Source: Aurelia coerulea
Taxonomy: Eukaryota > Cnidaria > Scyphozoa > Semaeostomeae > Ulmaridae
Direction of reading: 5' to 3'
Assembly (NCBI GenBank): GCA_039566865.1
Contig: CM076949.1
Coordinates: 6,415,501 to 6,479,500, forward strand
Length of the DNA stretch: 64,000 bases
Below, one piece after another: positions 2,967 to 60,794 of this stretch. Each line of letters starts with the position of its first letter. Positions within the stretch are counted from its first letter, which is position 1. A program made the translations under genes and the position numbers. The notes under the pieces were generated by a model, which was not told where the DNA came from, did no database searches, and worked only from the letters and a program-made list of their open reading frames with translations.

Positions 2967-4086
2967 CATGGGTAGCTAGACACTGCTGGTTTTCTTCTGT
3001 GGAGGAGCACTGCAACTAATATATACCTGCGGAGGAATAATTTTTATAGTTCTGCGGAGCAGGTATTACGCTAGTTCCTCCATAGCAGTAAATGTTTTTC
3101 TCCGCAAAAGAACAAAGCTGTGGTAATCAAGCACAACTGCGGCGTCTAACTACCCATGATTTTATTTGATACCAATTGGAGGAAATAACGAAAAAATTCT
3201 GTGAAGGAGATAACGAAAGACCATGCTTCTATGGAGGAACGCTGCAACTAATATGTACCTGCGGAGGAATAATTTCTATAGTTCTGCGGAGCAGGTATTA
3301 CGCTAGTTCCTCCATAGCAGTAAATGTTTTTCTCCGCAAAAGAACAAAGCTGTGGTAATCAAGCACAACTGCGGCGTCTAACTACCCATGATTTTATTTG
3401 ACACCAATTGGAGGAAATAACGAAAAAATTCTGTGAAGGAGATAACGAAAGACCATGCTTCTATGGAGGAACGCTGCAACTAATATGTACCTGCGGAGGA
3501 ATAATTTCTATAGTTCTGCGGAGCAGGTATTAAGCCAGTTGCTCCATAGCAGTAAATGTTTTTCTCCGCAAAAGAACAAAGCTGTGGTAATCAAGCACAA
3601 CTGCGGCGTCTAACTACCCATGATTTTATTTGATACCAATTGGAGGAAATAACGAAAAAATTCTGTGAAGGAGATAACGAAAGACCATGCTTCTATGGAG
3701 GAACGCTGCAACTAATATGTACCTGCGGAGGAATAATTTCTATAGTTCTGCGGAGCAGGTATTAAGCCAGTTGCTCCATAGCAGTAAATGTTTTTCTCCG
3801 CAAAAGAACAAAGCTGTGGTAATCAAGCACAACTGCGGCGTCTAACTACCCATGATTTTATTTGATACCAATTGGAGGAAATAACGAAAAAATTCTGTGA
3901 AGGAGATAACGAAAGACCATGCTTCTATGGAGGAACGCTGCAACTAATATGTACCTGCGGAGGAATAATTTCTATAGTTCTGCGGAGCAGGTATTAAGCC
4001 AGTTGCTCCATAGCAGTAAATGTTTTTCTCCGCAAAAGAACAAAGCTGTGGTAATCAAGCACAACTGCGGCGTCTAACTACCCATG
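2967..4086. repeat. 232-bp satellite array derived from a CATGGGTAG MITE
   Basis: About 4.8 tandem units with a constant 232-bp period: the landmark CTATGG/CTGTGG recurs at 2997, 3229, 3461, 3693 and 3925. Units are nearly identical. The array begins with CATGGGTAGCTAGAC and ends with GTCTAACTACCCATG, the inverted termini of a MITE family also present at 37246-38896 and 49817-50001. The array therefore looks like a MITE whose interior was amplified in tandem. An 84-bp-scale GGAGGA/TCCTCC-rich core gives each unit internal hairpins. Confidence 0.9.
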
Positions 4087-4211
4087 ATTTTATTTGATAC
4101 CAATCGGAGGAATGACTGCTTCCTTACATCTACTCGAATTTGAGCAAGCGACATTTTCTGTAATTTGTAGAAATTGACCTCAAAACACATAATAGTGACA
4201 GGAGCCTACTG

Positions 4212-4254: not shown

Positions 4255-5169
4255 GTATTACTTTATTTTTACAGAAGGCGAGAAGTAGACTGATGATATG
4301 GTCGTAGTTATCGCTATTGAAATACTGCCGGACGCTCCTAACTACGACTCATAATCAAACGCCATTATTTTGAAATGACTATGACTGCCTCGTTTCGATA
4401 AGGGCCTAGGCAGAAAAGCATAAACATTTGTAGTTTTCAAATGAAACACTTTGATTTGAAAACTTCACAATAAATCAGTTAATGCTTGGCGAAAGCAGCA
4501 AAATAGTACCTACATACAAAATTTGATATTGTCGCCAACTGTTTTCATGGTATTCTTCATCGTAAGACTTTATTCTGTCCGGTCAAGCTCCTTGAAACTC
4601 TGCTTTGAGCTTCGAGTTTCCGTTGTTCAACATCAATCAATCGAATTTGCAGAGATTCTAATGGCGTTGCAGTTGGTTGTGTACTTAGTACAAGACTGTG
4701 TATAGCAGCCTCGTTCCCAAGGGCGTTCAAAAGTGAAAAAAGTCAGTCCAAAAATATTGCCGTAATATTATGAGTCCCAGTAAGAGCGGTCTCGGTCTGG
4801 CGTAATAGTCTCGTTTTGGATAGCGATTACTGGGACTCATCGTAATCAGTCTAGGCGAGAAGTAATCACAGCTCTAAATTACAGCCAATTCAAGCCTACT
4901 GTACACTGTATAATATACAGAATTACAAAATAGATATCAATACTACTTTATCACATGAAGATAGAAACATAAGGTCTATCCTGTTAGGAACCCAACCTGT
5001 GGTACTTATAAAATGTTCCTTGTTCAATGTAACTTGTTCGAATAAAATGCAAGCTCCCAATCCTAAGTAGCTAAATTTTTCGAAAATGGTGGGACAGATG
5101 CCTCATTTTATGAACTGTGGCCCACTTGCTTTTTAATAAAAGTTGTTTAAGATGGGACATAGTACTCTC
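4254..5169. other. No gene; TAGACTGAT-type inverted fragments
   Basis: A TAGACTGAT...CGTAGTTATCGC motif near 4270-4300 and CGTAATCAGTCTA near 4843-4857 face each other. Related segments occur at 39165-39290 and 41945-42050, so this is probably a decayed short element. No exon for the neighbouring receptor gene could be supported here. Confidence 0.4.
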
Positions 5170-5404
5170 CTTCGCCGGTTTCTGGTTCTGTAGTTCCGTA
5201 GTCCATGGTTTCGTTGTCCGTAATTTTGCGAAAGGAGAAAAGGAAGAAAGATCACATAGATCCCCTCCACCGGTTTTTAGTTCCGTAGTTCCGTAGTCTA
5301 TGGGTCCGTGATCCGTAATTTTGCGAAAGGAGAAAAGGAAGAAAGATCACATAGATCCCCTCCACCGGTTTTTAGTTCCGTAGTTCCGTAGTCCATGGTT
5401 CTGT
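5170..5404. repeat. 94-bp tandem repeat, about 2.5 copies
   Basis: The segment containing TTGCGAAAGGAGAAAAGGAA recurs 94 bp apart (about 5226 and 5320), with flanking TTCCGTAGTTCCGTAGTC motifs. Non-coding. Confidence 0.8.
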
Positions 5405-5472
5405 CCGGCGGAGGAGAATAGCACATAGCACGAATACAGTACATGATCAATAAATATTTTATTTCTTACCAG

Positions 5473-5509
5473 GTGTATCATTTTGTTGGATGCGCCAAAG
5501 CCCACATCG
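5473..5509 (+). CDS. Receptor exon (end of TM4 / extracellular loop 2)
   Basis: A 37-bp exon between a good acceptor (TTTCTTACCAG) and donor (GTGAGTACC). Read with one leading base it gives CIILLDAPKPTS and ends in phase 0, matching the next exon. Its small size makes it the least certain of the set. Confidence 0.5.
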
Positions 5510-8500
5510 GTGAGTACCACTAACAAAGTACCAGGTGACAATTCGTAATATCAGTGTTCTTTCGTGTGTTTTACGTATGTAGTTAGCTCCTCCTTAGCAA
5601 TGTAGATTGTTGCAATCTTTAGGCAAACGGGGCACAAATTTTTTGGGACACCCTGTATTATAACAAATAATTGCGCTAAAGGTGGTGTCAGAAATTGTTT
5701 TATTGAGCCTTTGCATCTGAAAGAATCTCACTTGAATCTGTCGACTTATCAATAAAGGGGCTCCGTCTCCAAATTTCGGTCGAAACGGTGATTTTGAAAT
5801 TCTTTGATGGGCAATATCACACAGACATCTACCTGTTTTTTCGAAAATGAAAGCATTATTTGAAGATAAATCTTTGCATTTTATAGAGGAAAAATCCAAA
5901 CATTCATATCTCTTACGATTGCTTGGATATAAGTTGATATTTAATGGGCACTTTTTTGTGGCTTGGCTGAAGCCACCAAACAAACTGCAGAAAGCAGTGG
6001 AGAACAATGGACACGTGCGGTGTTTACAGATTTGTTTACAGTTTGGCGGTGGGGCCCCTTTAAATGCAAAGGATAATGGTTGCTCTGTGTTTTGCAAATG
6101 TTTTGGGATTGTACCGGGTGTCCCAAAAACTATATACAAGTTTGAAAAATTCTAATGCCAAGAGTTTTGGTCAAATCACCCAGAAACTATTTTTATGTTA
6201 ACCCTCAATGTCTAAATTATATTTTGGTATTTTTCTTGTCATTTTCGGTAACTTGGGTGCAGAGCAATAAATCAGCAAGTGTAAAATTTCCTCTAAGGCC
6301 CAAACCAGAGCTCCCAGTAGAGAAGAGCTAACCTAAGGATGACAGAAGCTTGTTGACCCTCGAAATCCAACGCTGCTATGTTTCGGGATTCTTATTGTTA
6401 GAAACCGATAAGATATCATTCTCTAAAGACAATAATATTACGTTATCATCAATCAAGGGATTTAGTTTACTTTACTTTACATCAAAATTGTAACCGGTTC
6501 ATTTTACTAAGGTCCCTTGACCAATAAGATACATTGATATAATTTCTCCAGGAAAGTCTTTGATTTAGTTTTGTGAATTAGTTCAATTCAACTGAGCAGG
6601 AAGTTGTTTCCTGAGAATATCACGGGGGTCTATTCGTAGGGATTCTTGACTACATGGTCTAAAAATGGCGGCTCTGGTTTGTGCTGAAGAATACATTTTG
6701 TGTTTGCCGATTGATAGGTCTGCAACCAAGTTTTCCACAGTGGTCAGAAAAATATCGAAATTTTATTTAGCCAATGAAGATTAACAAAAACTATGCTTTG
6801 GGTAATTAGGCTTAAACTCTCGGCGGCAGAATTTTTCACACTTATATACAGTTTTTTGGGACACCCGGTATTTTGTTTAACTGTAGACGTGAAATCTGAC
6901 CTCTTGACATGAAACTATCTTTCGACGATTTACAAGAATTTGATATTTTCTCATTAACTTGAACAAATTTCTTGTCTCAATTTAGGAAATGGGAAAAGTT
7001 GCAAATTACAATGGCTGCGTCTTGATGATAATCACTCTTTTGTTCTCTATTGTTACTATTATAGTAAGTTCTTTTGTTCTCCATTATTACTATTGTAGTA
7101 AGTTCTTTTGTTCTCCATTATTACTATTATAGTAAGTTCTTTTGTTCTCCATTATTACTATTGTAGTAAGTTCTTTTGTTCTCCATTATTACTATTATAG
7201 TAAGTTCTTTTGTTCTCCATTATTACTATTGTAGTAAGCTCTTTTGTTCTCTATTATTACTATATAGTAAGTTCAATTTCCATACATTTTATCAATTGAT
7301 TTCGCTATTTCTTACGCTGTGGTAATTGCGCAGATTTGTCTGACAAGTATTCATAGATTTTGATTGAATTGTCAGTAGAGTCCCTTGTTTTCATGTGCTC
7401 TTTGACTTGATGATGACGCTACCTAAGATTACAAACGAGCTACCATACAATACTACAGAAACGATACCAAGGGGAGCAAAAGATCATGACTACTCCAGGG
7501 CCATCACATGAAGAAGATAAACTAAAATACAACTAAATATATAAGAAGCCCCCTAGCTATTCAGAAAAGAATTAGAATTGAACGGTATTTTGCAAATGGA
7601 ATTTTTGAATGTACGCAATAGTGATAGAAGCTTTATCGCCACTCAATCGAAAGTCGCGTATGAAATGTATAAGAAGGACGCTCAATGCAGGCTCCAGAAT
7701 TAAAACCTGTTGAGCAGGGTTTTACCCCAGGGATACAAGAGACGCATGGTAACCAGTCTATGTTTGCCTCAGAGGTACAAAAATAGAGTTAAAGAGACGG
7801 GTTTCGTTCCTTTTGATTTTATTTCAAAACATGTCTTTAATTATTTTCGTGTTTTCTCTTAGCTTCTATATTTGTTCACACTCAAGATGTACCGAAAAAC
7901 ATTCTTAGGTAAGTGTAGCATAGGGCTCAAATCTTTCAAATTTTAAAAAGGTCGGTGTAAAATTCTATTGCAATTTTCTTTGAATTGGATGGCTTGAAAG
8001 GAACTTATGGTACTTTGCTGTAAATCTGCCGTGGAAATTTTTCGATAGTTTGATTTTTTTCAAAATGGCGGCAATTTAATTATTTTTGAAAAAATTCATG
8101 GAAAATTTTGAAACATTTAAATCATCGTAAATCCTAAACTATTAGAGGAAATATTATGAAACCTTCGAGAAAACCATAATTTATGAAGGTTTACAAGATG
8201 GTGGCAAGCAGAAATCTGTAGCTTTTCTTGTTTAGGATTTAGAAATTTGATGACGTCATAGCCTCAAATTTATTAAATGCCGCCATATTGAAACTAATCA
8301 AGATATCAATAAATTGCCACGGCAGATTTACAGCAAAAACCCCAAGTTCATTCCAAGGCATTTATTTCAAAGAAAACTGCAATGGAATTTTACACCGACC
8401 TTTTTAAAGATTTGAGCCCTATGCTGGTAAGTGTTCATACAACTACGGTTACTGCTAGAATTAGATACATATGTTAATCAATTTATTTTAAGAAATCCTT

Positions 8501-11500
8501 TACTCGTTCTAACATATGTACCGGGTGTCCCAAAAAAATTATACAGATTTGGTTGACTCCAGCGATGTGAATTTAGCTTTAATCAATGGCTAATCACTCT
8601 CAAAATGTTCCTCGATAGTTAACTTGAATATAAATACCTCGTTTGTTGGTATTGGTGCTGTGAGAGCAGAAATATCAACCTTGAAAGTTCAAATTTTCGT
8701 CCACCTGCAAACCAGTGCTTTGGCATTTTGGCCTAAGAAAATTTCTGAAGCACATCGAAATTGATAACTGAAATTAATGAAAATTAGGAAACTGGAAATT
8801 AGGAAATTTTATCAAGGCTATCGTTGATTTATATACAATGCATCAAGAATTTGCTTAGGCCAAAGGCTAAAGCTCTAGTTTGCAGGAGGAGGCAAATTTG
8901 AGCTTTCAAGATTAATATGTCTGCTCTCAAAGCACCAATATCAAAAAACGAGGTACCTATGTCCAAGTTAACTATCGAGGAACATTTTTAGAGTGATTAG
9001 ACATTGATTGGAGCTAAATGCAAATCGCTGGAGTCAATCAAACCCGTAACACATTGTTTTGGGACACCCGATATTTAAATGTATCAGCTTTATTGATAGC
9101 TTATTCTTTAACGTTGCAGGTTTCCGGACAAACAGACAAAGAGTGGTAATTCAGGCAATGGCAAGAAGAGCTGCTGCTTATGTCATCGTGTTCATATACT
9201 GCTGGACCCCCGGTAAGTTCGTTTGATGGACTTCTTGATAGTGATACCATGTTAAACATAGGGATGTGTGTTGTACGATGTATGTTAGCCCGTTCTATTG
9301 GGCTTGATAACGGGCTATGCTCGAAACGTCGTGCTTATTTCAATTCGCATCAAAGTGCTTATATTTTACTTTGTTTACTTGTTTATCGATATATGTTAAA
9401 GCCAACAAACATTATTGTTAGAAATTTATGAAATCAATCGGCCATCTAATTCATGACAGCAAGGCTGTTCAGTGAGCAGGGGTGGAACAAATCTAGCGGA
9501 CCAGAGCACCAATGGTCCCATACATTTTTGAAAAATGGCAGAAAGAAAAATGAAAGGGTATTGTGTGAAAAGGAAACTGAAGGACAAGATGAAATTTGAT
9601 TCAATCATTTTGTAATTCAGTTTTATTGACAAAAAAGCGTTTATCTTATTTCCTTGATCAGTTATAATAAATGTGCAATCAGTTTCTGTCATATATTCAA
9701 ATGACTGCTTTGAAAGACTTTTACCGTAAATAGTAACCTAAACTTTATTTCATCACTTTCTTTAAATCAAAATTTTGGGAAAAAGAATTTGGTGAGCTTA
9801 TTTACTTCAAAAGGATAAAAGTATTTGTTTCATGTAAGTGCAGCAAAAAGAGGAGCAGTCGGTGATAAAATACAAAGCGGTTGCGAAGAACAAAGTTCGT
9901 TGATTTTCACTTGCTCATTTATGGTCCAAGAAAGGAATATATTTTTCCAGAGCCCTGTCAGTGAGGTCTGAGAAACAAATTACTGTCCACGAGGATGTTC
10001 AGACTTAAGTAGCGCAGCAGCCAAGTCGTTCCAATTCAATTCCAATTCTTATGTTATAAGTTTCCAGGTTTTTTAGTTATTTTGAAAAGTATTATGATGG
10101 TGAACATGAAAAAAGTTTACAACACTGCACTAAAATGTTGTTGGTTCTTCATCGACACTTAAACATAAACCAGGAGATCTGATAACATTTTAGGACGCAG
10201 GCTCACCACTGCGCCCAAACACCTTAGAGGGGCTCCGTCGCCAAATTGTAAACAAATCTGTAAACACCATTGTTTTAGGCACGTGTCCATTGTAGTCTGC
10301 AGTTTGTTTGATGGCTTCACCCGATCCACCAACAAGGACAGATTTTATAACACAATAGCAAGAGATGCTCTTGTTGACACCTGAATTCAAAGCGATTAGC
10401 GATTGCAGACAAAGGAAATTCCCTCAACCGGCAATTCAAAACAAACAAACAAAGCCGCAAAACTTTCCCTGAAACTCAAGTAGCTAGCGCGCTCATTGTG
10501 CATTCCAGAAATGGTTTTTAAGAGCAAACATGACCATATATCGAAAGAAGAAGGATAGATCTACACATCTACCCCTGGTATTTTATTTCTTTGGTTCAGA
10601 AGCCGAGCAGTAAGTGTTTTCATTACACCCAAAAAGGAAGAGAATTGAATCGCCTCCCAATCGGCTTTTGAACCCAACAAATTAAATGCGCGAGGCAGAT
10701 GTGTAGATATATTCTTCTTCCTTCGATCTATGTTCGTGTTTGCTCTTAAAAACAATTTCTGGAATGCACAACGAGCGCGCTAGCTACCTGGGTTTTTGAG
10801 AAACTTTTGCGGCTTCGCTTGTTTTGAATTACTGGTTGAGAGAATTTTCTTTATCTGCAATCGCTAATCGCTTTGAATTGCGGTGTCAATCAAAACCAAT
10901 TCGTGCTATTCTCTTACCAAATCTGTCCTCGTTCGATCCACCAGAAATTGACGGTCAAAAATCCATTGCATCCGAGCAGTCGTAAAAGATATGAATGTTT
11001 GATTTGTTCCTCTGTGAAGTGCAAAAATTTATCTTCAAAACAACGCTTTCAGTTTTGAAAATAGAGAAAGAGTCTGTGTGATATTACGTTTCAGAAAACT
11101 GCAAAATCATCGTTTCGACAGCAAGTTGGAGAACCATAACTGGCATAATTTACGACATGAGGGGGGATCAGACAAAATCTCCGTGAGAATAGGATCGATT
11201 TTGAAAGGGTTTTGTTGTAAAGGAATTCCTTGTTGGTTTTTTCCTGCTGCTGACATTCTTTATTTTTCTCCTACCAGCACTTGTCTTGGCTTCCATGCGT
11301 CTGCGGAAAAATTTCGGATCATGTGACGCAGATCCCAAGAAATACGAGCCACCACTTGTAAAATATTTTGTGGTGTACGCCATCCAGGTACGTAGCAGTT
11401 TTCCATGTTTTTTATTTGCCATTTAAGAAAAGGGCCTTTGCGATATTAGTGTTTTGTGGGCTCAGTGCTTCGTGAAAGAAATAAACAAAGCACACAAGCC

Positions 11501-12943
11501 GCGCGAAAGCATGTTGGGAAACACGTGTATCGTACGTACACATCACAATCATTACCGTTTTCTTTGATGCTATAAGTTTTGTTGTTATTCAGTGTTTTCA
11601 CTTTTCTCTGAATTTCTCTTAATCTGTAAAGCATGTCTGAAAACTCTGCAACAACCACAGCACAGAGCAAACTCATTGTTTGAAAATGACCTCATGCTAC
11701 TACTGTCTTAAACTTCTGGCTTCAGTCTTGTCCAGAATTCATACCTAAACTTGCTACGTATATGACATGTCACGACTTTGTCTTCCAACTTTTTTCTTTG
11801 CCATATGTTCTGGAGAGGAAAAGCTTCGATCTCGCAAAATGTTCCTGCCTCGAGGTAGCCGTCTTAATTTCTGATTATCAGAAATTATCGATCAAAGGGA
11901 ACCAAGGTATATTTGTGGTCGCAAAGCAATGACGTTGCACAGGGCCCTTTAACTTAACTCACTGTTGTTTCTTTTTAAGATTTAGTTTCCAATTCTCATA
12001 TCCATCGAGAATCACCACCGGATCTAAGAATTTCAAAGCAATTGGTTTCATGCTATTTTCTTAAACCGGGTTGCCAAAAGATATTGCATGTTACCCAGCC
12101 CATAGGCAAAAGTCTACTCAACAACAAGGACAGATTTGTAATACAATAGCATCCGTTACTTTTGACTGACACCTCTATTCAAAGCGATTAGCGACTGCAG
12201 ACAAAGGAAATTCTCTCAACCAGTAATTCAAAACAAGGCCGCAAAAGTTGCCATGAAACCAGTAGGGGAAACTCTCACCTTGTGCACGCGAAAGGTGGTT
12301 TTTAAGAGAAGTTATGTGCTTATATCGAAGGAAGAAGGGTAAATCTAAAGATCTGCCTGGCAGATTTTGTTTATTTGATTCAGGAGCTGAGTAGTGATTG
12401 TTTCTAATAGAGACCTGAATATGCGAGAATTGTAATGCCTTCTGCTCGGTTTCTAAATCAAATAGACAAAATCCGCCAGCCAGAACTTTAGATTTACCCT
12501 TGTTCTTTCGATATAAGCACATATCTTCTCTTAAAAACCACCTTTCGCGTGCACAAGGCAAGGGTTTGCCCCACTGGTTTCGGCGGTACTTTTGCGGTTT
12601 TATTTGTTTGTTTGACTTACTGGTTGAGAGAATTTCCTTTGCCTGCAGTCGCTAATCGCTTTCAATCGAGGTGTCAATCAATAGCAACTAATGCTATTAT
12701 ATCACAAAGTCTGTCCTTGTTACAGTGAATACATTATTTTTTCTTCCCTTTTAACAGACACTATCAGCACCACTCCAAGGTTTCCTGAACACCCTCGTTT
12801 ACGGATGGAGCCGAAAATCATTTCGTGATGCAGTTACGCGGGAATCGAGACAGCTAATATCTGCTGCAAATACAACACAGTATGGAACTTGGGAATCCCC
12901 TTCGTCGTCATTTGCCAGTTCTGGTGAAGGTTGGAGATCGTAG
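5473..12943 (+). CDS. Seven-transmembrane receptor, 3' part of gene (six exons, 5' end not found)
   Basis: Joining 5473-5509, 6986-7063, 7863-7908, 9120-9212, 11278-11387 and 12758-12943 gives one open frame with consistent phases (starts with 1 nt, then 0, 0, 1, 1, 0) ending at TAG 12941-12943. The product shows TM5 (GCVLMIITLLFSIVTII continuing into LLYLF), a basic third intracellular loop, TM6 containing FIYCWTPALVL, and TM7 with PLQGFLNTLVYGW. About 46 Ser/Thr-rich C-terminal residues follow. The QGFLN-x-LVYGW end to TM7 replaces the rhodopsin NPxxY. It resembles the cAMP-receptor-like/TMEM116-like group from memory, so family assignment is tentative. TM1-TM3 and the start codon are missing: they lie upstream of the window or were not recognised among repeats. 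Its introns are packed with MITEs. Confidence 0.75.
5752..6064. mobile_element. TTAAAGG-type MITE (Kolobok/T2-like)
   Basis: Begins AAAGGGGCTCCGTC and ends GGGGCCCCTTTAAA. The interior is shared with copies at 10224, 18137 and 30623. The TTAAAGGRR terminus matches the T2 MITE class assigned to Kolobok, whose target duplication is TTAA. Confidence 0.75.
6112..6870. mobile_element. TA-flanked MITE with TACCGGGTGTCCC termini
   Basis: Left terminus TACCGGGTGTCCCAAAAAC and right terminus GTTTTTTGGGACACCCGGTA are inverted copies with TA at each edge. TA duplication suggests a Tc1/mariner-type mobiliser. There is no transposase frame. A solitary right terminus of the same kind sits at about 5637-5658. 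It lies in a receptor intron. Confidence 0.85.
6986..7063 (+). CDS. Receptor exon (TM5)
   Basis: Acceptor CTTGTCTCAATTTAG, then 26 codons including NYNGCVLMIITLL, then donor GTAAGTTC at 7064. Phase 0 at both ends. The last about 30 bp are also the first unit of the 34-bp minisatellite. Confidence 0.75.
7034..7276 (+). repeat. 34-bp minisatellite repeating an exon end and its 5' splice site
   Basis: About seven units of 34 bp. Each ends in ...ACTATTRTA followed by GTAAGTTC (GTAAGCTC in one). GTAAG starts at 7064, 7098, 7132, 7166, 7200, 7234 and 7267 (the last after 33 bp). The first unit is the 3' end of the TM5 exon plus its donor. Reading past the first donor hits TAG at 7130-7132, so only the first donor or (with a frame change) the second could be used before that stop. 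Confidence 0.9.
7549..7722. mobile_element. Diverged copy of TAGACCTTTTAGCTATTCT MITE
   Basis: Colinear with the reverse complement of 13970-14152 across the shared CAATAGTGATAGAAGCT core, but the termini are decayed (CCCCCTAGCTATTC at the left). Confidence 0.6.
7863..7908 (+). CDS. Receptor exon (TM5 end / start of intracellular loop 3)
   Basis: A strong pyrimidine tract and acceptor (GTTTTCTCTTAG), 46 bp encoding LLYLFTLKMYRKTFL plus one base, then donor GTAAGTG. Phases match both neighbours. Confidence 0.7.
7916..8412. mobile_element. Fold-back MITE (AGCATAGGGCTCAAATCTTT termini)
   Basis: The left arm from 7916 and the right arm to 8412 are inverted copies for well over 100 bp. Related but more decayed copies are at about 13650-14410 and 32480-32960. 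It begins eight bases after the donor of the preceding receptor exon. Confidence 0.85.
8519..9073. mobile_element. TA-flanked fold-back MITE
   Basis: Starts TACCGGGTGTCCCAAAAAAA and ends TTTTGGGACACCCGATA. Its arms are inverted over about 150 bp (for example GACTCCAGCGATGTG against the right arm at about 9027). A relative is part of the composite at 48578-49570. It lies 46 bp before a receptor exon. Confidence 0.88.
9120..9212 (+). CDS. Receptor exon (intracellular loop 3 and start of TM6)
   Basis: Acceptor TTTAACGTTGCAG, donor GTAAGTTC. With the incoming G it encodes a basic loop and then AAAYVIVFIYCWTP, typical of a receptor TM6 start, leaving one base that joins CA of the next exon to make Ala. 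Confidence 0.8.
9213..10223. other. Receptor intron; nothing recognised
   Basis: AT-rich sequence without long open frames, inverted repeats or splice-flanked exons that I can support. Confidence 0.6.
10224..11133. mobile_element. TTAAAGG-type MITE split by a later insertion
   Basis: The left part (TTAGAGGGGCTCCGTCGCC from 10224) and the right part (10934-11133) match the two halves of the element at 5752 and 18137. They are separated by the AACAAGG element at 10331-10933 and its 9-bp target duplication. The right terminus is lost. Confidence 0.7.
10331..10933. mobile_element. AACAAGG fold-back MITE (Mutator-like), with 9-bp TSD
   Basis: Begins AACAAGGACAGATTTT and ends with the inverted CTGTCCTCGTT. 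The long arms pair with each other. CGATCCACC flanks both sides (10322-10330 and 10934-10942). A 9-bp duplication with long inverted arms points to Mutator-like mobilisation. Confidence 0.9.
11278..11387 (+). CDS. Receptor exon (TM6 end to TM7 start)
   Basis: An excellent acceptor (TTTTTCTCCTACCAG) and donor (GTACGTAG). Together with the incoming G it reads ALVLASMRLRKNFG, a Cys/Asp/Lys-rich extracellular loop, and KYFVVYAIQ, the start of TM7. An alternative upstream acceptor at 11222 would add TM-like residues but breaks the phase with the previous exon. Confidence 0.8.
12123..12721. mobile_element. AACAAGG fold-back MITE (Mutator-like)
   Basis: AACAAGGACAGATTTGT at the left and ACAAAGTCTGTCCTTGTT at the right, with long inverted arms. 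No intact 9-bp duplication is visible. It ends 36 bp before the last receptor exon. Confidence 0.85.
12758..12943 (+). CDS. Receptor last exon (TM7 end and cytoplasmic tail)
   Basis: Acceptor TTCTTCCCTTTTAACAG. It opens with TLSAPLQGFLNTLVYGW, then SRKSFRDAV and a Ser-rich tail, ending at TAG 12941-12943. The QGFLN...YGW signature anchors the receptor call. The 3' UTR runs into a fold-back element within 60 bp. Confidence 0.85.
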   Translation, partial: TLSAPLQGFLNTLVYGWSRKSFRDAVTRESRQLISAANTTQYGTWESPSSSFASSGEGWRS

Positions 12944-13002
12944 TAGGACCACGTGACTTTTTTCTATTATTCTTGAGTGTGTGGGTGTGTGGTACAAAAA
13001 TT

Positions 13003-13493
13003 GGCATGTTGTAAAAACCGGACCCTAAGACCCTGGGACCACTGAAACCCCTAGGACCTTTAAGTACTAGAAGTGAAAGGACCCTTAACACCAGAGGGTT
13101 ATGATCAGGAAGTTGTGTATCATTAACTCCCCTTCTTTCGTCCCATGAACTTCCATTCTTTCAAACCAATGCCAGGAATCATCCAGAGAATTTATATCAT
13201 GCAGAAGTACTATTTTGAGTATCTCCTAGATTGAGCTAGTTTAGAGACTTTCTGCATGAATAAAGGCATCCTGGCGTTGGTTTGAAGGGACGGAAGTTCG
13301 TAGGATGAAAGAGGGGAAGCTCATACAACACGCAGCCTCTTGTTTGACAGCTTGATGAAAGTTATCTATTGTTTGTCTGTGGTGATGACCCTCTGGTGTT
13401 AAGGGTCCTTTTCATTTTTAGTACTTAAAGGTCCTCGGGGTCTCAGGGATCCTAGGGTCCTAGGGTCTTAGGGTCCGGTTTTTACAACATGCC
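13003..13493. mobile_element. Fold-back element (GGCATGTTGTAAAAACCGG termini)
   Basis: The arms pair through GGACCCTAAGACCC / GGGTCTTAGGGTCC and an inner pair around 13120-13330. The right arm carries short TCCTAGGG repeats. It lies just after the receptor stop codon, probably in its 3' UTR. Confidence 0.8.
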
Positions 13494-13589
13494 ACAAAAA
13501 TTGCGTAGCAAAACTCTTGGTTTAACTCCAAATCAACACAGGTGTCAAATCGATCAAAGAGATTGCATAGATGGCTATTGCTTCTTGGA

Positions 13590-21856: not shown

Positions 21857-24800
21857 CTAAATAATCGATAGATGTGGAATTCAAAGGTTTGTGCAACTTT
21901 AGACTTAAAAATTGCATTAGCTGATCCGTTCGCTTTGAATTACATAAGAATTTACGTAGGACTTTTTTCCGCGAAATTAATGCTTAGCGAAAACTAGTGA
22001 GCTGGAATTATTCCAGTGTGCAGCTGCTTGAAGAATAGTGCAAACCATATGCATATAAAGCTAAAGAGTGTTATCCTTTTATCTCAACCAAAATGACTGT
22101 GACACTAACTGGAGAGATGATTTGTGTTCTACTGTCTTGAGTCTAAGTCACTGTCTTGAGTCTAAATCACAACTTGAGTCTAAGTTTTTCGAAATTTCCA
22201 TTCGACTTTGAACTCATATCGCAAGGCTGTGTTCCACCGGTGGGTGCAATTCAATGTAAAAGGTACACCACGCTTGTCCATACCATTTCATAGAATACCC
22301 GTTTCCCTAACTTTCTGGTTGGCAAATGGAAAATTTCACTTTATTGGAAAACAGTAGAATCTCATAAAACTCGGGGTATCAAATGGTTGCTAATCACAAA
22401 ATATATACCTTTCAAGCAGTAATCTTCCTCTGTAGAAACAAAATAGATCCATCGCAGCTACGAGAACTCTAGGCCGTACCGTATCAACCGTCTTTTGTAT
22501 GCAACAACAACAACTGTCTAACTAGCGCCTCCTTATCGGTTGAAAACTAAATTCTAGCAATTTGATTGGTGAATACGGAACCACTCTACGCGGGCCTAAA
22601 TTTAGCCACTTTTTAAGAGTAATGTTATGAGCCCCTATTGACCAAGTAATATCAGCGAATCAAAGAACACGGGGAAACAAGGGACTAAAAGTCATAAGTC
22701 TAGACGTATGCCAGGTGGAAAATATAAATGACCTCTCACCTTACAAATCTTTCTGCTCTGCTCGTTCTGCTCTTACCAGTAGGCATCAATGCCACCCAGA
22801 TAATGACCACAAGAAAACCAATGAAAATACCCAATAACACGTGACCATGGAGTCCTGGCTCGGTCCACTGAAGTTCGAATATCGGCAGTAGAAGTAATGG
22901 CATTGCAAGAATACCTTGTATGATAAATGGCACAAGCTAAAGAATAGTAGAACAGGTATCATTTAAGGGCTTTGTTATAATTGCTCAATAATGGGCTGGA
23001 AAATAAGGGCAGATTTTGTATGACAATACACCACTTCAATATACAGCCTCGTTTTGGAAAATATTCAAAATTCTTTGATACGAAATTTTAGAAGCCGAAT
23101 TCGGATTTACCACTCAAACTTTAGTCTAACTGCAAGTTTTTATGTTGCTATCGGTAGTAATTTTGATTTTGTGGCGATGCAAAGTTTGAAAACCCGCAAG
23201 GGATTTGACCGTGAAAATGACTCTGGGTGTAAAGTTTCACCCTCAATGATTTTTCACGGTCAAATCCCTTACAAGTTTTTAAACTTTATATCGTCATAAA
23301 ATCAACATCACAATCGCCAGCAGTGCAAAAACATGAAACTAGACTAAAGTTTGGGTGCTAAATCCGAATCTGAGCTTGAAATTTTCATATGAACAATAGA
23401 AAGAAATGTTGATACATTTCCAAAACGAGGCTGCTATATTGAAGAGGTGTATTGTATCAGTTGCTTTTGATTGACACCGGAATTCAAAGCGATTAGCGAT
23501 TGCAGACAAAGGAAATCTCTCAACCAGTAATTCAAACATACAAAGCTGTAAACGTTTCCCTGAAACCAGTAGAGCAAACTGTCGCCTTGTACATGCGGAA
23601 GGTAGTTTTTAAGAGAAGTCATAACGTTTTAATGAACGAAGAATTATAAATCTAAAGATCTACTTGGCGGATTTTATTTATTTGATTCAGAAGCCAAGTA
23701 TGTGGTAATTTTTCATCGAAGCCGTAAATATATGAGAATTGCAATGCCCCCTGCTCAACTTCTGAATCTAATACACAAAATGGGGTCTTGAAAGATAAAG
23801 TTTTGAAAAAGTATATGCAAAGCCAGCGTTGATGAAAACATTGCCATTCATATAGTATCTTTCGATCATGAAGACTATGCACAACAACATCCTTTTTACA
23901 GCTTTCAACAGGCCAAATGGCATTCGAGAAGCTGATTTCTGAGGGGAGTGGCTTTGAAAAACGGCAACACGCTGCTCACCAGTGCGGAAAGCGGGGGAGG
24001 TCTTTGATCACTATGCACAACAACATCCTTTTTACAGCTTTTCAACAGGCCAAATGGCATTCGAGAAACTGATTTCTGAGGGGAGTGGCTTTGAAAAACG
24101 GCAACACGCTGCTCACCAGTGCGGAAAGCAGGGGAGGTCTTTGATCACTATTCACTGGGTTTCTTTGGAATCTGCACATTATGTCGATTTAATAGATAGC
24201 CTTGAAACAGAAATTATAGTTCTTACCACTTGCCAAAACGAAGTCTTCAACAAGGTCTTATCTGCAATCCACGATTTTCCCATCGTCAATCCCAGCATAA
24301 CTTGCAGGCTTAGCACAACCTCGTTACGATATCCTCCCATGTGATAAGAAACAACAGCCCCCGACGTTGCCATGGCATCCGAGAGTCTAATGTCGTTAGG
24401 GGTAATGGAATGTTCATCAAAATCTTTGACATCATCATCATCGATTCTCTCAATAAGTGTCGGACTTAGAGTGAGTAGTGTGAACGAATCAGCTGGCTTG
24501 TTTGAGACCGTATACACCCAGTTGTCTACTAACACATTGCAAATGTATTGGGGTTGTATTTTCTCAAGATCCTTCAATGTCAATGTTTCTTTTTCAAAGT
24601 TATCATCCGCAGGGATTTCTTCGTACAATCCTGGCCGTGCTCCTTGAACGTAAAGGCCACTCAAAGGTAAAAAATCGGCCAATGAAATACCCCTGCAGCC
24701 TAGGCATCCAGAACTTATTGGCGTGTAGAATGATTTCTGAAGTCTGCACCTGTTGATGTGAGATACTCAGTGAATGTTTTCAAGAAAAAACTATTATCAC

Positions 24801-59688: not shown

Positions 59689-60212
59689 ACTCATCTCATT
59701 TTGTTGATATCAGAAGCTCCTTCATTTGTATCCATTGCAAAATTCATACTGGTTTGTGGAAAAGTCTGTTACAACAACACTCACAACAAAAATTTAACAA
59801 CTTTATCATTCACTTTCTGCATGTTACACGATGCAAAGTGTGCTGAAACTTGTCTCACATAATGTCATTGTAAGCCAGTTTCAAATGAAAAATAATTAAC
59901 AGGACCTATAGAATCCACACTAAGGGTTAGATTCATTCTTAGTTCATTAGCAAACACAAAAGTTGTTTGTTTGCAGTGGAACCACCTGTTAGGTCAGCTG
60001 AATGCATATCTAATGATATTTCTGTTCAATCTGTTATGAGAGAATTATGTTTTGTAGACTGATATTTATTGGAGCCATGCTGGTAGAATGATGTTTGTTG
60101 GAACGGGTCAATTATTTTTCTTTGATCAGCGTAATGCAGTTTGTGGGCACTGTGAGTGGCTAATGTCAAAATAGGCAATCCTCTGTAATGTTTGTAGTTT
60201 AATGTTAGCAAA
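59689..60212. other. No feature seen
   Basis: No supported frame or repeat. Confidence 0.45.
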
Positions 60213-60483
60213 CCATAATATTTTTATTCTCACTTCTTTTTATCTAATCTGATAATTTGCTGGTTCAAGTGAAAATATTTAGCAAATAATTACTAGCAAG
60301 TAGAGCATTGTTGGCATATTTTTGCTTTCTGCAAACCTGTCAAACAATGCAAACCATACTATTTTTATTCTCACTGCTTTTTTATCTAATCTGACAATTT
60401 GCTGGTTCAAGTGAAAATATTTAGAAAATAGTTACTAGCAAGCAGAGCATTGCTGGCATATTTTTGCTTTCTGCAAACCTGTC
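60213..60483. repeat. Tandem duplication, about 140-bp unit
   Basis: Two diverged direct copies (TATCTAATCTGATAATTTGC at about 60242 and its counterpart at about 60383) with matching GTGAAAATATTTAG and TTTTTGCTTTCTGCAAACC blocks. Confidence 0.88.
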
Positions 60484-60794
60484 ATTATGTTGTTGTTCTA
60501 ATATGACAATGTAGGGTGGCTAATGCTGGATGAAAATATTTAACAAAGTTGTTGATGGACTTCCATTCACGCTTGAGGTGATCCTGTGGTGTGATGTGAT
60601 GTTATTGATGCAATGCAGGTGATTGAATTCGGTTGATCCAACTTTGTCACATTTGGCATTGTCCTTCATTGATGTACAAAATGTGTCCATAACGTTTCAA
60701 GAATGATGCCTCAAGTGTGAAGTCAGTGTGAAGTGAACAACAGCATGTTTTCTTCAATTATGCTGTTATTCTTTGGGTGTAGGGTGTACATGTC
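60484..60794. other. No feature seen
   Basis: TGTGATGTGATGTTATTGATGCAATG low-complexity near 60590; otherwise plain. Confidence 0.4.

Follow-up and report, generated by a model that had tools for sequence, protein, structure and literature searches.

A 34-bp minisatellite repeating the donor end of a TM5 exon in a TMEM116-like receptor gene of the jellyfish Aurelia coerulea

The window, the whole 64-kb stretch of Aurelia coerulea DNA analysed here, contains the 3' part of a receptor gene. The gene model is intact, with 13 exons encoding 380 amino acids, and extends from L006:1116 to window position 12943. Exons 1–7 are located upstream of the window, and the upstream 10 kb (L006) completes the gene. 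Exon ends were picked as GT-AG sites fitting the homologs, which was feasible for 12 of 12 introns. Within the window, all exons are on the forward strand. Exon 8 (5473–5509), supported by the match of CIILLDAPKPTS to proteins P0001 and P0002 and by the spliced model, corresponds to extracellular loop 2. Exon 9 of the 13 (6986–7063) consists of 26 codons in the frame EMGKVANYNGCVLMIITLLFSIVTII and ends in phase 0; it is 78 nt long, its flanking introns measure 1476 and 799 nt, and it rests on tblastn matches to P0001 and P0002 and on the model. Exon 10 (7863–7908; LLYLFTLKMYRKTFL) covers the end of TM5 and the following loop, and its acceptor closes the intron that bears the tandem array described below. 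The remaining exons, likewise placed by tblastn and the spliced model, encode TM6 (exon 11, 9120–9212), the third extracellular loop and the start of TM7 (exon 12, 11278–11387), and the end of TM7, the C-terminus and the stop codon (exon 13, 12758–12943). The tblastn searches with P0001 and P0002 found exons on either side of the array and farther on.

A search with the spliced piece from TM5 to the end of the protein returned two relatives, P0001 and the Rhopilema esculentum transmembrane protein 116-like protein. The full protein returned 14 relatives, the nearest named one being this same jellyfish TMEM116-like protein (E 3.9e-134). Over 99% of the query, the two best relatives, the Rhopilema protein and P0001, showed 58% and 52% identity respectively. 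The Pfam family 7tm_1 was matched by the full protein at 36.4 bits, above the cut-off of 30.5; the partial protein by itself matched the rhodopsin family at 19.3 bits, below that cut-off. By these homologies, the host gene is a TMEM116-like receptor of the rhodopsin family. Exon 6986–7063 is assigned to TM5 by its position along the full protein and by the rhodopsin-family match over that part. A first idea by eye, TM3 of a Cys-loop channel, was ruled out by the full gene model and the TMEM116 homologs. Searching the genome with the Rhopilema protein gave 13 matches with E values of 10 or less, five of them in the array-bearing gene on C7. The other eight were weak (best E 0.0026), and therefore no close second copy of the receptor gene was seen in this search. 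At the exact counterpart of the exon 12/13 junction, P0001 carries an extra stretch (residues about 311–376), which probably represents an intron treated as coding sequence by that gene prediction.

At the 3' end of the TM5 exon, Tandem Repeats Finder (TRF) reported an array at 7036–7274 (forward strand) with a period of 34, 7.1 copies, 94% matches and a score of 422. Placed in register, the unit comprises 28 exonic nucleotides (7036–7063) and six intronic ones (7064–7069), such that copy 1 is the exon end with its donor and copies 2–7 are intronic. GTAAGT starts at 7064, 7098, 7132, 7166, 7200 and 7267, and GTAAGC at 7234; the last donor-to-donor interval is 33, copy 7 being short of one T. 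On the forward strand of the whole 64-kb window, GTAAG[TC] occurs 27 times, the seven of the array included, and seven in-register donors within 239 bp are far beyond chance. The sequence-only reading of this DNA had proposed a real TM5 exon at 6986–7063, a 34-bp array of about seven copies, and seven donors from 7064 to 7267. The exon is borne out by the homologs and the intact 13-exon model, the array by TRF, and the donor coordinates agree exactly with the motif positions.

The copies differ in a regular manner. Copy 3 is identical to copy 5 and copy 2 to copy 4, and one position is A in copies 1, 3 and 5 but G in copies 2, 4 and 6, a pattern suggesting that the latest growth of the array was probably in 68-bp double units. 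A 68-base probe from the array gave four overlapping matches in the genome (574 Mb, 294 contigs), all within the array itself, in a search that scores best candidates only and could miss distant copies. It is hardly credible that the array arose in assembly or is confined to the one animal sequenced. It is known from one assembly only, but 239 bp with distinct copy variants, in a contig of 26.5 Mb, is well within the reach of a single read.

The frequency of such arrays was estimated from 20 segments of 10 kb, spaced at fixed steps along four contigs (200,000 bases). Eighteen arrays with a period of 10–100 and at least three copies covered 3064 of these bases (1.5%); only one array had a period of 20–60 and at least five copies. 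One long minisatellite other than the TM5-donor array occurs in this sample, at L037 2045–2668, with a 42-bp unit in 14.7 copies. In the 200-kb sample, the window and L005–L006 together, three arrays had units that contain GTRAGT on one of the strands: the TM5-donor array and those in L038 (3.6 copies) and L020 (1.9 copies). Introns number tens of thousands per genome. With 1.5% of bases in arrays, some donors should therefore sit inside such arrays without any function.

Which of the seven donors makes the receptor can be judged from protein homology. Nine of the 14 relatives found with the full protein were aligned. The place where 7063 meets 7863 is gapless in the eight that cover TM5, as in FSIVTII|LLYLFTLKMYRK of the Aurelia coerulea gene and FSIVAII|VLYLLTLRMYRK of P0001; P0014, the remaining one, aligns with just 9% of the query, away from the junction. 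By homology, the donor of the full receptor is therefore the one at 7064 (7064–7069), the putative working 5' splice site and the sole one of the seven giving a gapless full-length product.

Products of the other donors were computed with the remaining gene model unchanged. Splicing from donor 2 (7098–7103; +34 nt, frame +1) gives a frameshifted product of 309 amino acids, and from donor 3 (7132–7137; +68 nt, frame +2) one of 273. Donor 4 (7166–7171; +102 nt) is in frame but lies beyond the in-frame TAG TAA at 7130–7135, and gives 258 amino acids, as do donor 5 (7200–7205), donor 6 (7234–7239), weaker with its GTAAGC, and donor 7 (7267–7272). The TAG at 7130 terminates all four of these 258-residue products. 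Translation from 6986 meets no stop up to 7129, and the TAG is read only when splicing occurs from 7166 or later, because the donor at 7132 splits it. All six later-donor products lose TM6 and TM7 as such. The sequence-only reading had placed a TAG at 7130 and held that moving to a downstream donor would shorten the receptor or shift its frame; the stop was found there, in frame, and all six computed products behave as it expected. If mRNAs were made from the later donors, they would likely decay.

Further roles for the repeated unit were considered and rejected. A recursive splicing (ratchet) site joins an acceptor AG directly to a donor GT (AG|GT). The units read TAGTAAGT, where the G is common to both motifs, so that no AG|GT exists. 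Microexons within the array, from a repeat AG to a repeat donor (28–67 nt), were enumerated and offered no useful isoform: those starting at the TAG meet a TAA stop straight after the TM5 residues II, and those starting 4 nt after the TAG give a frameshift or stops. Every array unit contains TTACTAT/ATAGTAA. A special RNA fold of the array was rejected as well, repeated shuffled units being at least as stable in 19 of 200 trials. Folding of 6986–7300 gave a z of -1.94, a stability equalled or exceeded by 5 of 100 shuffles, and an Rfam search of 5000–13500 returned no match at the gathering score.

The locus is best explained as an ordinary boundary minisatellite in which 7064 works, the other six donors are intronic decoys and copy number matters little to the protein (probability about 0.82). 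Its units span an exon end and a 5' splice site, as in the minisatellite of the human CBS gene, and the host gene is intact by model. The exon-intron boundary would have been tandemly duplicated into a minisatellite, growing by slippage or unequal exchange, with the double units as the probable last step. Copy 1 would then retain the TM5 exon end and the working donor, and copies 2–7 would lie in the intron with their donors as decoys. The 78-nt exon between introns of such length would be recognised by exon definition, so that the donor closest to the upstream acceptor would win and copy number would be largely neutral. Beyond the first donor, the array most likely has no function.

The expected choice between neighbouring donors depends on how the exon is recognised. 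In classical work on intron definition, the downstream donor was favoured. In the study by Carranza and colleagues, equal donors favoured the downstream site when introns were short and the upstream site when the flanking introns were long (PMC9225289). In human minigenes that carried two identical strong donors separated by 52 nt, with introns of 365 nt, splicing went exclusively to the upstream donor; weakening both donors led to skipping of larger exons, while exons of small and medium size continued to use the upstream donor (PMC9225289). The same study reports an upstream preference of 60% overall among human events filtered for equal strength; without that filter, the downstream donor was favoured in most events of every intron class, including the long one (PMC9225289). 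Read with these exon-definition results, the exon and intron lengths found here predict use of 7064, on the basis of human data.

Donor strength was modelled as pairing to the 5' end of U1. Donors 1–5 and 7 gave -5.6 kcal/mol and donor 6 gave -4.5; five of the six decoys thus pair as well as the donor at 7064, which is third weakest among the 12 of the gene (range -4.7 to -13.1 kcal/mol). A weak 7064, decoys that pair equally well with U1 and the mixed data on human donors, the comparison data all being human, are points against the boundary-minisatellite reading. In an unlikely alternative, copy number would be a splicing variable. Some pre-mRNA would be spliced from later donors, longer alleles would give less receptor, and the products would be truncated receptors or decayed mRNA. 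Six near-identical donors stand in competition with the first, and none of them yields an intact receptor. The intronic 38-bp VNTR in intron 6 of human TERT, a minisatellite of similar unit length, shows that splicing can be controlled by the number of repeats (PMC3948165). Against this stand the upstream preference of the exon-definition minigenes (PMC9225289) and the need of the full receptor for 7064 by protein homology. Alleles of 1 to 10 copies were also modelled from copies 1–6, lengthened with copies 3 and 4 and leaving out the irregular copy 7. On average, donor 1 was unpaired with a probability of 0.24 with one copy and 0.30–0.32 with 2 to 10, and 0.31 in the natural allele, so that its modelled accessibility is nearly flat across copy numbers. 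No polymorphism is known here, the array having been found at one genomic place in one assembly. No finding here shows a later donor in use. Tunable splicing, which the sequence-only reading had put forward as one option, is possible but unsupported. A heritable dial, by which repeat number would set the share of later-donor transcripts and alleles would differ in the dose of full versus TM5-truncated receptor, is very unlikely.

The weakness of 7064 speaks for another reading, in which the extra donors and U-rich stretches would raise local occupancy by U1 or TIA-type proteins and so aid a weak exon, cleavage still occurring at 7064. Each of donors 1–5 is followed by TTCTTTTGTTCTCC; a near copy follows donor 6, and donor 7 runs into unique sequence. 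TIA proteins are described as binding U-rich stretches beside 5' splice sites and recruiting U1 (PMC2964331). However, the U-rich stretch is part of the repeated exon end, which is T-rich through its codons for hydrophobic residues, and such help to the exon appears quite unlikely.

For the boundary minisatellite, the closest counterpart is the 31-bp VNTR of human CBS. This VNTR, c.1444_1467+7(16_21), comprises by its name 24 exonic and 7 intronic bases, and has five allele sizes of 16 to 21 repeats with single-base differences among units (PMC2630376). A table sites it at exon 13-intron 13 and lists it with raised homocysteine and, apparently, lowered activity, which would favour an effect of copy number (PMC1395315). 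In both arrays, the unit joins the last exonic and the first intronic bases, including the donor (24+7 in CBS, 28+6 here), its length is 1 modulo 3, and single-base variants occur among units. The CBS array has 16–21 copies, is polymorphic and has been studied for enzyme activity; the present one has seven copies and is known from sequence in one assembly. A 2001 report by Lievers reportedly concerns reduced CBS activity. Another CBS variant, 844ins68, is likewise a duplication across a splice junction, and is harmless because one splice-site copy is strongly preferred. In the potato RdRp gene, tandem duplication across an exon-intron boundary also passed on splice signals, but there a new intron formed, and none is implied here. 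Neither a jellyfish case nor a repeated donor in a receptor gene is named in the titles among the matches listed from the open-access literature. The boundary-donor architecture is already known from human CBS, a counterpart that the sequence-only reading did not mention, and the Aurelia array adds an example from another phylum and an unrelated gene.

As a genome feature, the array is ordinary, with a closely similar arrangement in human CBS. It nevertheless offers a clean natural test of how the spliceosome chooses among seven near-identical, in-register donors: exon definition predicts the first and intron definition the last, and the receptor is made from the first only.

Other repeats are found in the gene and the window. 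An element of about 760 bp (6112–6870) ends 115 bp upstream of the TM5 exon and is bounded by perfect terminal inverted repeats of 18 bp (TACCGGGTGTCCCAAAAA), with additional inverted arms inside. The 9-base core, GGGTGTCCC/GGGACACCC, recurs at 5645, 8523 and 9061, and the element looks like a mariner-type MITE. Intron 7 of the receptor gene holds a tandem array at 2994–4112, with a 232-bp unit in 4.8 copies and 98% matches. The ends of 12–2137 encode the same peptides on opposite strands (12–164 forward and 1985–2137 reverse, and in part also 121–393 forward and 1720–2028 reverse), so that they form the long inverted repeats of an element of roughly 2.1 kb. Sequences duplicated in tandem, in about two copies each, lie at 60208–60484 (unit 142 bp) and 23874–24155 (unit 137 bp).
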